DNA from: Sphingomonas sp. 67-36
Lineage (GTDB): Bacteria; Pseudomonadota; Alphaproteobacteria; Sphingomonadales; Sphingomonadaceae
Length of the DNA stretch: 64,000 nt
Assembly: GCA_001897375.1 (NCBI GenBank)
Contig: MKSU01000004.1
Location: forward strand, 353,621 to 417,620
Direction: 5' to 3'
In this document: positions 18,237 to 21,423 of the stretch, one piece after another
How the letters are laid out: each line of letters starts with the position of its first letter
How positions within the stretch are numbered: position 1 is the first letter of the stretch
Made by a program: the position numbers and the translations under genes
Notes under the pieces: generated by a model
What the model was told of the DNA's origin: nothing
What the model saw: only the letters and a program-made list of their open reading frames with translations
Database searches by the model: none

Positions 18237-18757
18237 TGGGACACCGTGGGACATACCGGAAGATCGGGAACGGCGGCAACCTGCTTCCCGCGTGACTTCC
18301 TGGCTTTCAGATATTGCAGCGTGGCGACGATGATCCCCGCCGTGTTACGCGCGGGCAGCGGCTCCAGCAGCGTCACCAGCCGGTCGATCGTCGGGCAGTC
18401 GCCGGGCTGGACATGGCCGACGATCTGCGGCGCGAAGATCGAGGTGAGCAGCGGCCGCGCGTAATCGGACTGGAGCAGCATATCGACCGCCGGATCGCTC
18501 AATTTGACGATTGCGGCGCGGGCGGCTGGCCATGCCGAGTCGGCGGCGGCCTCATACCGCGCGAGGAAGGCGCTGCTCGGCCGCCGGACGAGGCTGGCGG
18601 GCGGCAGCGCGGTGCAGACGCGCCCGGTCTCGCGGATGATATCCGGCATGGCGACCAGTGCGATCGCCTCCGCATCGGAGGCGGTGAGACAGGGGGCCTG
18701 CGCGCTGGCGGCGGCGGGCATGGCGATCAGCGCCAGCAGCGCGGCGAGGCGCTTCAC
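18233..18757 (-). CDS. hypothetical secreted protein
   Basis: Protein of 174 residues with a clear signal peptide (MKRLAALLALIAMPAAASAQA, cleavage after about residue 20). The mature part is mostly helical, with Cys residues in PCLTASDAE, RVCTALPP, GDCPTIDRL and the C-terminal LPVCPTVSQ that could form two disulfides in the periplasm. I recognise no family. It overlaps ispDF upstream and pncC downstream by 4 bases each, so it is the middle gene of an ispDF transcript. Confidence 0.7.
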   Translation of the reverse strand: MKRLAALLALIAMPAAASAQAPCLTASDAEAIALVAMPDIIRETGRVCTALPPASLVRRPSSAFLARYEAAADSAWPAARAAIVKLSDPAVDMLLQSDYARPLLTSIFAPQIVGHVQPGDCPTIDRLVTLLEPLPARNTAGIIVATLQYLKARKSRGKQVAAVPDLPVCPTVSQ

Positions 18758-19878
18758 AGCGCGCTTCCCGGCAGCGTCGCGGTGACGACGGCCTGCGCCG
18801 CGATGCCCTCGCCACGGCCGGTGAAACCGAGGCGCTCGGTGGTGGTGGCCTTCACGCTGATCCGATCGGTCGAAAGCTCAAGAAGTTCCGCGATCCGCGC
18901 CCGGATCGTCTCGCGATGCGGGCCGATCTTCGGCGCCTCGCAGATCAGGGTGAGGTCGACGAAGGTGACGCGGCCGCCGCGCGCCCGGAGCAGCGAGAGG
19001 GCGTGACGCAGGAATTGCCCCGATTCGGCTCCGCGCCATTGCGGGTCGCTCGGCGGAAAATGCATCCCGATATCGCCCGCCGCGATCGTGCCGAGCAGCG
19101 CATCGGTGATGGCGTGGAGCGCCACGTCCGCGTCGCTATGCCCCGACAGGCCCTGATGGTGCGGGATGAGCATGCCGCCCAGCCACAATTGCTCCCCGTC
19201 GGCGAGGCGGTGGACGTCGAAGCCCAGCGCCGAGCGGGTCTCCATGCCCAGTCGCGCCTCGGCAGCGGCGATGTCGCCCGGCCAGGTGATCTTTTCCAGC
19301 ATCGCATCGCCCTGCACCAGCGCGACCGATCCGCCAAGGGCGCGGACCATCTGCGCATCGTCGGTGGCATCGCCGCCGGCCCAGCGGCGATGCGCATCGG
19401 CCAGCGATGCGTAACGAAAGGCCTGCGGCGTCTGCACGCGATGGAGCGATTCGCGCGGCACCGTCTCGCCGTCGTCGCGCACCAAAGTATCGGCCACCGG
19501 CAGCACCGGCACCGCGCCGTCATGCGAATCGAGCGCGGCGAGCAGCCGGTCGATCACGGCGGCGGGGAGAAAGGGGCGCGCCGCGTCGTGCACCAGAATA
19601 CGGTCGGCGCCGGCCAGCGCGGCCAACCCGGCGGCGACGGACTCGCGGCGCGTCGCCCCGCCGGCGATGCTGGCCGCGCCGGGCAACGCCTCGGCGAACA
19701 GAGCCTCCTGCCCCGCGCCGATCGCGATTAGCACCGTGTCGATCTTCGGATGGCGGCTGAGCGCTTCGTGGCTCCACGCCAGCATCGCGCGGCCGCCGAT
19801 CGCGGCATATTGCTTGGGCAGGGCAGCGCCGGTGCGCTCCCCCTTGCCGGCGGCGACGATCAGGGCGACGGTCTTCAT
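18754..19878 (-). CDS. ispDF: bifunctional IspD-IspF enzyme
   Basis: Two steps of the MEP isoprenoid pathway in one chain: MEP cytidylyltransferase (IspD, about 1-215) and MECDP synthase (IspF, about 217-374). IspD shows ALIVAAGKGERTGAALPKQY and ILVHDAARPFLP. IspF shows RSALGFDVHRLADGEQLWLGGM with the metal Asp-x-His, then GLSGHSDADVALHAITDALLG and IGMHFPPSDPQWRG, and ends VKATTTERLGFTGRGEGIAAQAV. The fusion is common in alphaproteobacteria, where IspE is thought to bridge the non-consecutive steps. Dxr at 50.4 kb and UppS at 48.9 kb act in the same route. Confidence 0.97.
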   Translation of the reverse strand: MKTVALIVAAGKGERTGAALPKQYAAIGGRAMLAWSHEALSRHPKIDTVLIAIGAGQEALFAEALPGAASIAGGATRRESVAAGLAALAGADRILVHDAARPFLPAAVIDRLLAALDSHDGAVPVLPVADTLVRDDGETVPRESLHRVQTPQAFRYASLADAHRRWAGGDATDDAQMVRALGGSVALVQGDAMLEKITWPGDIAAAEARLGMETRSALGFDVHRLADGEQLWLGGMLIPHHQGLSGHSDADVALHAITDALLGTIAAGDIGMHFPPSDPQWRGAESGQFLRHALSLLRARGGRVTFVDLTLICEAPKIGPHRETIRARIAELLELSTDRISVKATTTERLGFTGRGEGIAAQAVVTATLPGSAL

Positions 19879-19920: not shown

Positions 19921-20060
19921 GGGAAAATCCGGGGCGGCCAGACAGGGGGAGGGCCGCCCCGTAGTTCAGGGAACGACCGGGAAAAGGGAGACCCGGCCAC
20001 CGTCGGTGCGAGGGGACGCCACCGACGCATCAAGGGCTAGGCCCGCGATGTTGCGGGAAT
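19921..20060 (-). ncRNA. candidate small RNA with four hairpins and C-rich loops
   Basis: No gene covers this stretch, yet the minus strand folds into four consecutive perfect stems. They are 20057-20053/20046-20042 (5 bp), 20027-20020/20008-20001 (8 bp), 19996-19992/19981-19977 (5 bp) and 19960-19952/19939-19931 (9 bp). The second to fourth loops read GCGUCCCCUCG, UCUCCCUUUU and CUCCCCCUGUCU. Each exposes a UCCC core able to pair with Shine-Dalgarno sequences, as in known anti-SD small RNAs. The last stem is followed by GGATTTTCCC and acts as a terminator. The 5' end is uncertain: a -10-like CCTAGCCC at 20041-20034 would start transcription near 20028 and leave three hairpins. No Rfam family is recognised by eye. 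Confidence 0.6.
19924..19960 (-). terminator. intrinsic terminator of the small RNA candidate
   Basis: GGGGCGGCC (19960-19952), a 12-base loop and GGCCGCCCC (19939-19931) form a perfect 9-bp GC stem; TTTT follows at 19927-19924. The orientation only makes sense for a minus-strand transcript starting between here and the MFS gene. Confidence 0.6.
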
Positions 20061-20133
20061 GTGTCTGCGGAGAACGATCGTGTTTCCGCCGCGAAATGTT
20101 GACGCATCGGCGATCAGCGGGGATGGAAGGCGC

Positions 20134-21423
20134 ATGACATCGGCCGCCTCGACCCGCCGCATCCTGATCGCCAGCCTCGTCGGCACGACGGTCGAATTCT
20201 ATGATTTCTATATCTATGCCACCGCCGCCGCATTGGTGTTCGGCCCGCTGTTTTTCCCGGCGGAGAGCGCCTCGGTGCAGCTCCTTTCCTCCTATGCCAG
20301 CCTCGCGGTGGCGTTCATCGCGCGGCCGGTGGGGGCGTGGGTGTTCGGCCATTATGGCGACCGGATCGGGCGGAAATCCACGCTCGTCGCCTCGCTGATG
20401 CTGATGGGCGGATCGACCCTCGCGATCGCCTTCCTGCCCGTTTACGCGACGATCGGCTGGTGGGCGCCATTGCTGTTGTGCGTGCTGCGCTTCGGCCAGG
20501 GATTCGGCCTTGGCGGCGAGTGGGGCGGGGCGGCGCTGCTCGCGGTGGAGAATGCGCCGCCGGGATGGCGCGGGCGCTACGGCATGGTGCCGCAGCTCGG
20601 CGCGCCGATCGGCTTCATTGCCGCGAACGGGCTGTTCCTCGTCATCGGCCTGATGATGACGCCGGCCGATTTCATGGCATGGGGCTGGCGCGTGCCGTTC
20701 CTGCTCTCGGTCGTGCTGGTCGGGCTGGGGCTGTGGGTGCGGCTGCGCATCGCCGAGACGCCGGCCTTCGCGAAGATGCTGCAGGAAGGCCCGCCGCCCG
20801 CCGTACCGATGGGCGAGTTGCTGCGCGATCACTGGCGCACCGCGCTGGGCGGCACGTTCGGCGCGATCGCCTGTTTCGCGGTCTATTATATCGCGACCGC
20901 CTTCGCGCTCGGTTATGCCACCACTACGCTCGGGATCGACCGGCAGACCTTCCTTGCGCTCCAGCTCGGCGCGATCCTGTTCATGGCGGTGGGGATCGTG
21001 CTTTCGGGCATCTGGGCGGATCGCAGCTCGCCGGCGAACGTGCTGACCTGGGGTTGCATCGGCGCGATCCTCGCCGGGTTCCTGCTGGTGCCGGGGCTTG
21101 GCTCCGGCTCGCTGGCGACGATCTTCGCCGCGCTGGCCTTCGCCTTGCTGGTGATGGGGTTCGTCTATGGCCCGCTCGGCGCGTGGTTGCCGGGGCTGTT
21201 CCCGGCGCGGGTGCGCTACACGGGCGTGAGCCTTGCCTTCAACATGGCGGGGATCATCGGCGGCGGGCTGACCCCGGTGGCCGCGCAATGGCTGTCCCAG
21301 CGCGGCGGCGGGGTCGCGGCGGTCGGCCTCTATCTCGCGGTGGCGGCGCTGCTGAGCCTGATCGCGCTGGTCGCGCTGCGCCCGCGACGCGGCGTCGCGC
21401 CGATGGTGGTCGAGGGGCCTTAG
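20134..21423 (+). CDS. MFS transporter, metabolite:H+ symporter type
   Basis: Inner-membrane protein of 429 residues with 12 hydrophobic segments. It begins RRILIASLVGTTVEFYDFYIYATAAALVFGPLFFP, the hallmark start of the MHS family (ProP, KgtP, ShiA). The loop between segments 2 and 3 is FGHYGDRIGRKSTLVASLM, and RFGQGFGLGGEWGGAALLAVENAPPGWRG follows. Family members move small acids or osmolytes; the substrate is unknown. The ATG at 20134 has GGAAGG 7 bases before it, while the longer frame from 20059 would lie inside the RNA-rich spacer. The last 4 bases overlap the convergent rsmD stop. Confidence 0.88.
   Translation: MTSAASTRRILIASLVGTTVEFYDFYIYATAAALVFGPLFFPAESASVQLLSSYASLAVAFIARPVGAWVFGHYGDRIGRKSTLVASLMLMGGSTLAIAFLPVYATIGWWAPLLLCVLRFGQGFGLGGEWGGAALLAVENAPPGWRGRYGMVPQLGAPIGFIAANGLFLVIGLMMTPADFMAWGWRVPFLLSVVLVGLGLWVRLRIAETPAFAKMLQEGPPPAVPMGELLRDHWRTALGGTFGAIACFAVYYIATAFALGYATTTLGIDRQTFLALQLGAILFMAVGIVLSGIWADRSSPANVLTWGCIGAILAGFLLVPGLGSGSLATIFAALAFALLVMGFVYGPLGAWLPGLFPARVRYTGVSLAFNMAGIIGGGLTPVAAQWLSQRGGGVAAVGLYLAVAALLSLIALVALRPRRGVAPMVVEGP

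Follow-up and report, generated by a model that had tools for sequence, protein, structure and literature searches.

Our data strongly support the presence of a structured small RNA displaying repeated C-rich loops on the minus strand of the window, the whole 64,000-nt stretch of DNA analyzed here. The element (positions 19924 to 20027, about 104 nt), whose strand, structure, conserved loops, and terminator are established below, is conserved, is independent of any one neighboring gene, and is almost certainly an RNA gene. With a probability of roughly 70%, we favor the reading that it acts in trans as a small RNA whose multiple seeds pair with mRNAs.

The gene lies in a structured, GC-rich stretch between ispDF (positions 18754 to 19878, minus strand; NCBIfam NF006899, 460.7 bits against a cutoff of 417), its downstream neighbor in the window lineage only, and a divergent gene for an MFS transporter of the metabolite/H+ symporter type (positions 20134 to 21423, plus strand; NCBIfam TIGR00883, 401.8 bits, under the cutoff of 443.45). 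Read from the minus strand, positions 19924 to 20027 fold at -54.7 kcal/mol, compared with -41.0 kcal/mol for shuffled sequences (z = -4.06, with none of 200 dinucleotide shuffles as good), whereas the plus-strand fold is weaker (-49.2 kcal/mol; z = -2.31; 3 of 200 shuffles as good). The initial annotation had described perfect consecutive stems on the minus strand, and the fold confirmed the hairpins and the terminator, although the first hairpin carries a bulge and is thus not perfect. Hairpin 1 (positions 20001 to 20027) presents the loop GCGUCCCCUCG at 20009 to 20019, and hairpin 2 (19975 to 19998) presents the loop UCUCCCUUUU at 19982 to 19991; both are followed by a linker core, UUCCCUGAACUAC, at 19961 to 19973. 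In the window copy, the linker folds into a 4-bp GUUC/GAAC hairpin, an insecure prediction on which covariation is silent because the linker is nearly invariant among relatives. The element ends in an intrinsic terminator (GGGGCGGCC/GGCCGCCCC, positions 19924 to 19961, minus strand), with the loop CUCCCCCUGUCU at 19940 to 19951 and a hairpin of 10 pairs spanning 19961 to 19930, followed by GAUUUU; the TTTT reported after the last stem is indeed present, at 19927 to 19924, and this U-run of four is short. Of this terminator, a simple scan picked up no more than a shorter, overlapping stem (19943 to 19927), and its total of 3 sites between 18700 and 21500 is not clearly higher than the 1.5 expected by chance. 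Judging from the base of the first stem and the position of a -10-like sequence, the 5' end would fall at about 20027. A weak CAUC/GAUG hairpin also folds above about 20028, overlapping the -10-like sequence, and the bases above that point are probably promoter rather than RNA.

Evidence that this structure is maintained came from two alignments of relatives. We collected 78 distinct sequences, some of them near-identical, selected for the core CCTG[AG]ACT[AG][CT]GGGG and a TTTT; conservation of the core and the TTTT within this set is by selection, because the filter required both. In a MAFFT alignment of 14 of the 78, picked because their lengths were regular, and with the structure assigned after inspection, 96.0% of cells were paired and 12 of 25 pairs had changes on both sides. 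Both-side changes occurred in 56 cells, against 18.4 in shuffled alignments and at most 19 in slid controls, and the covariation score was 0.484, against 0.183 shuffled and at most 0.175 slid; further pair types were unremarkable, their count being reached by 75 of 500 shuffles. The second alignment, which is model-fitted and therefore leans towards the structure, held 77 sequences from 74 loci recovered at E <= 1e-7 with a model, R2, built from 14 sequences with the structure supplied by hand; 14 of 88 loci, namely ten short or weak relatives (L131 and L136 to L144) and four suhB loci, had been dropped beforehand. Here 95.9% of cells were paired, with 410 both-side cells against 123 shuffled and a covariation score of 0.607 against 0.184, while the tally of 19 pairs changed on both sides, matched or exceeded in 14 of 500 shuffles, does not stand out. 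By element, both-side changes affected all 7 pairs of hairpin 1 (93.7% of cells paired) and all 8 pairs of hairpin 2 (94.0%) in the 77-sequence alignment, and 3 of 7 and 6 of 8, respectively, in the MAFFT-only alignment; the terminator was paired in 99% of cells of the 77-sequence alignment, with both-side changes in 4 of its 10 pairs and 5 pairs invariant.

The same alignments determine the strand. G-U pairs outnumbered A-C pairs by 123 to 12 in the 77-sequence alignment, a comparison in which model fitting favors G-U, and by 25 to 0 in the unfitted 14-sequence alignment; because of this excess, the minus strand can be taken as the transcribed one. One might argue that the locus holds a mere strong terminator accompanied by chance hairpins in a high-GC spacer, since such spacers fold easily and the result of the terminator scan, taken alone, is close to the chance level, but the z score, the compensatory changes in both upstream hairpins, the conserved loops, and the presence across the genus all oppose this explanation; it is refuted by the covariation, and we assign it a negligible probability. 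The lack of a reading frame that would explain the stretch was also borne out: no frame for a small protein is conserved among the 77 relatives, in which the number of bases preceding the core leaves all three remainders on division by 3 (32, 27, and 18 sequences).

The loops are conserved together with the stems. Among the 77 sequences, loop 1 contains UCCC in 69, loop 2 in 58, and the linker in 75; 49 have it at all three positions, against an average of 0.8 such sequences, and never more than 5, after the unpaired letters were shuffled within each RNA. Counted over the whole RNA, 38 of the 77 carry three copies, 18 fewer, and 21 more, and in four the terminator loop bears CCCCCUGU, like that of the window copy. 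The linker follows the pattern UCCC[UC]G[AG]ACU in 72 of 77 sequences, and its CC, G, AC, and U columns are invariant in all 77. Within one RNA, the seed is similar but not identical between positions. Upstream of a variant core, UCCCCGAACUACGGGG or similar, the shorter relatives (L136 to L144 and L131) often have a single strong hairpin, whose loop is C-rich. The repeated C-rich loops named in the initial annotation are thus a property of the family, and stem covariation and loop conservation among relatives, which form the computable part of the refutation test that it had set beforehand, both proved favorable.

A separate observation concerns CAGGGGGAGGTGGCATG, a dispersed repeat with at least 19 sites in one genome (G157) and at least 3 in another (G326) among the matches listed. 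In both copies read (L296 and L322), it lies within the palindrome CCTCCCCCGCCAGGGGGAGG, and it contains the complement of the CUCCCCCUG loop of the RNA family; it could serve as a natural sponge or have no connection with the RNA.

The RNA is widespread in Sphingomonas. A blastn search of 100 genomes returned matches in 18, the window genome included, and these first 18 sequences differ in their upstream stems but hardly at all in the linker and terminator. A first model, R1, built from these 18 sequences in a MAFFT alignment with the first stems misplaced, matched 173 of 295 genomes of the genus at E <= 0.01, and R2 matched 121 of the same 295 at E <= 1e-6, both in runs whose stricter filters lose weak matches. 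The other 174 genomes gave no R2 match at that threshold, and therefore the RNA is not essential to the genus. Matched genomes carry a single copy, with the exception of four (G040, G268, G109, and G175), in which a second, diverged copy accompanies the first at a distance of about 0.2 to 2.3 kb (loci L018, at 1280-1383 and 1494-1609, L120, and L123).

Within the order, R2 matches were confined to 17 of 396 genomes and to one of 84 genera, and the core pattern was likewise found in 17 of 396, all within the genus (17 of 46, by a count of rows); it was absent from the 350 other genomes of the order, and the reversed control gave no match. Among named genomes, the core pattern occurred in at least 119 stretches, and 12 of the 80 listed had titles other than Sphingomonas. 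R2 was used to score 11 of these 12 (L246 was left out), giving two good scores and nine that were weak or nil. The two good ones, an Arthrobacter-titled record (85.6 bits) and an uncultured bacterium (61.9 bits), are probably both Sphingomonas; four of the others scored 11.4 to 23.3 bits, the level of wrong-strand noise (up to 24.9 bits), and five gave nothing, and these nine are taken as chance matches. The RNA is present in S. melonis, and the main text of a transcriptome paper on S. melonis Fr1 (PMC6599016) contains no mention of small RNAs under the terms searched. In a literature survey of titles and abstract openings, covering few subscription papers, the RNA was not described, and the one described sphingomonad small RNA that we found, according to the partial text of its source, is SuhB of Sphingopyxis granuli (PMC6563040).

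The genomic neighborhood of the RNA varies. Of 78 copies, 48 are divergent from the MFS gene, 22 lie beside an aconitase gene, which is downstream on the opposite strand, and 8 have neither neighbor, five of these 8 sharing one other neighborhood. Where the MFS gene is the neighbor, the closest downstream gene of the four tested is pcrA/uvrD-like in 22 copies, pitA-like and on the opposite strand in 16, ispDF in 6, amidohydrolase-like (presumably pyrC) in 3, and none of these in one; the core lies 147 to 258 bases from the start of the MFS match in 47 copies and 457 bases in one. These varied neighbors argue that the RNA gene is independent of ispDF or MFS.

The tie to ispDF drawn in the initial annotation therefore turned out to be incidental, with ispDF adjoining only 6 of the 78 copies. 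It is true that the TTTT of the window copy lies 45 bases before the ispDF start on the same strand, as would be expected of a cis-acting leader with an attenuator or terminator controlling read-through into ispDF. Nevertheless, the structure is retained without ispDF, the nearest tested downstream gene elsewhere being pcrA/uvrD-like, pitA-like, amidohydrolase-like, or aconitase, and such a role in cis is very unlikely.

Another alternative is that the RNA acts mainly on the divergent MFS gene, either through pairing with its mRNA or through a shared promoter region. In addition to its frequent association with the RNA, this gene is preceded in several loci (among them L011, L012, L089, L106, L132, and L133; by eye) by a G-rich stretch at its start that the UCCC loops could bind, and the MFS start in the window has GGGGATGGAAGG (by eye). 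However, a clear G-rich site is lacking (by eye) at many other MFS starts, the RNA and the MFS gene do not overlap, and no MFS match was found in the examined locus for 30 of the 78 copies, 22 of them being those beside aconitase. Action mainly on this gene is thus unlikely, and we regard it as one possible target among others of the trans-acting RNA.

Upstream of the RNA, an 18-bp box of the form GACACAT-N4-GCAACAT (positions 20048 to 20065, minus strand), a direct repeat with an 11-bp period, is present in its strict form in 51 of the 78 relatives; 26 of the remaining 27 show nothing closer than a loose GCAAC-like half-site in the upstream region, and such a half-site can arise by chance. 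The exact box matches once within the window. It was found in four of six genomes searched, always beside the RNA, and was absent from two; a regulon is not apparent, in that none of the six had exact sites away from the RNA, with seven one-mismatch sites elsewhere. The box is a probable promoter or activator site. A putative -10-like hexamer, CTAGCC (positions 20035 to 20040, minus strand), lies between the box and the RNA, and CTAGA- or CTATGA-like sequences recur there in many relatives (by eye); a sigma-70 scan found no site. An 11-bp spacing of direct repeats suits regulators of the OmpR type. A similar spacing, of about 10 bp, is given for CenR in the partial text of PMC9275681. Two candidate regulators were rejected. 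The ChvI motifs quoted in the extract of PMC9731502 do not match the box, and the CenKR motif is TGA-N8-TGA, in a system reported in the available part of PMC9275681 to be missing from Sphingomonadales.

As to its kinship with known small RNAs, no Rfam family exceeds its cutoff at the locus and none hits the window copy, which upholds the earlier description of the RNA as undescribed, although a resemblance to alpha-r8 (suhB/mmgR) RNAs is seen over its 3' half in seven of the first 18 loci. In those seven, cmscan with suhB/mmgR (RF00519) gave 24.4 to 32.2 bits, below the gathering cutoff of 41 bits; across all 18, no other Rfam family matches the element at E <= 1, and every suhB match falls on it. 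Like the alpha-r8 RNAs (suhB/mmgR, SisA to SisD of Caulobacter, and SuhB of Sphingopyxis granuli), the RNA carries CUCCCU-(G)AACU towards its 3' end before a GC-rich terminator, and its rho-independent terminator directly follows the seed. Unlike them, it lacks the single-stranded 10-mer UUUCCUCCCU in all 77 sequences, the nearest equivalent being (C)UCCCUGAACU, and in place of a weak hairpin before the seed it has one or two strong, covarying hairpins of 7 to 8 bp with C-rich loops. In the reverse direction, a weak test, R2 gave a suhB copy of the window genome 20.2 bits, within noise. The RNA possibly descended from an alpha-r8-like RNA, and the shared C-rich sequence and terminator could also reflect convergence.

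The other instructive comparison is with alpha-r14. According to the partial text of PMC10746234, NfeR1 also has several structured units with a repeated anti-SD-like seed and freely varying stems. There, however, an identical CCUCCUCCC occupies three unpaired regions, whereas here that sequence is found in 2 of 77 RNAs, once in each, and one of the seeds sits in the linker before the terminator. The same source links NfeR1/alpha-r14 by citation to the cuckoo RNA paper. By the tests applied here, the RNA is a member of neither alpha-r8 nor alpha-r14. It further resembles ChvR of Caulobacter, described in the extract of PMC6237742 as a free-standing small RNA with its own promoter and pairing through stem-loops (both putative here), but ChvR has a single reported target there, and the upstream box here is unlike the ChvI motifs quoted in PMC9731502.

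Considering these data, we propose a model in which the RNA would be independently transcribed and act in trans. Its two stable hairpins and linker, together with the terminator loop in the window lineage, would each display a UCCC-type seed; pairing of these seeds with G-rich ribosome-binding regions probably blocks the translation of several mRNAs, and Hfq, which the window genome encodes, probably assists the pairing. There are precedents for such action, as far as the partial texts go: the three anti-SD motifs of NfeR1/alpha-r14 silence mRNAs at translation starts, for example, that of ntrB (PMC10746234), and SisA/alpha-r8 lowers reporters with predicted seed pairing (PMC12559287).

Across 50 predicted genes of the window, the loops paired better at positions -22 to -1 than in three other regions, a comparison that is partly circular because the starts were chosen by SD strength. 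Letter-shuffled loops paired equally well or better at starts for five of six loop sequences, giving no clear preference beyond composition; loop 2 beat its own shuffles, but did so in every region, and the gap between starts and other regions was in some cases slightly larger than for shuffles (as a raw difference). The pattern CAGGGGGAG-N3..12-ATG occurred 89 times in 14 genomes, against 33 times for the reversed pattern, with 22 of the 89 coming from one repeat. Outside that one repeat, no matched string was seen in more than 3 of the 14 genomes, and 30 of the sites were read individually. Our confidence in any given individual target is low.

Protein decoys also use repeated similar motifs in hairpin loops, and the loop repetition seen here would fit a design of that kind. 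The RNA might likewise sequester G-rich RNAs as a sponge, for which there is a precedent in the Caulobacter RNA CrfA, which, in the extract of PMC12559287, pairs through a G/A-rich loop with C-rich alpha-r8 RNAs and acts as their sponge. No partner was identified here, however, and NfeR1 uses its C-rich seeds on mRNAs according to the partial text of PMC10746234, so that we consider sequestration of a protein or of RNAs improbable and favor pairing with mRNAs.

A wider reading, which we put forward tentatively and as somewhat doubtful, is that the RNA is a Sphingomonas-specific global riboregulator that arose from an alpha-r8-type RNA by hairpin gain. In this scenario, the C-rich seed, mostly in three and up to five or six copies, would be carried on freely evolving stems, with an extra copy in the terminator loop of the window lineage; the multi-seed design of alpha-r14 would have been reached independently; and the RNA would function alongside the ordinary suhB copies, in a cell with a two-domain fused Hfq. 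A conserved, usually single-copy, multi-seed RNA is a tractable case for asking why RNAs multiply one seed, offers a case for how alpha-r8-like RNAs may diversify, and would add a new family to Rfam.

The window genome has at least two suhB/mmgR RNAs over the cutoff elsewhere (L039, C2:81262-81339, and L040, C20:4337-4412), the first of which is preceded by a palindrome, GATTGCA...TGCAATC; comparable palindromes occur upstream in two other genomes (G018 and G036). A double Hfq is known from another sphingomonad. The Hfq of the window genome (L323, C16:81721-82152) is apparently encoded as one open frame of 193 amino acids with two tandem Hfq domains, scoring 103 and 91 bits and lying 243 bases apart.
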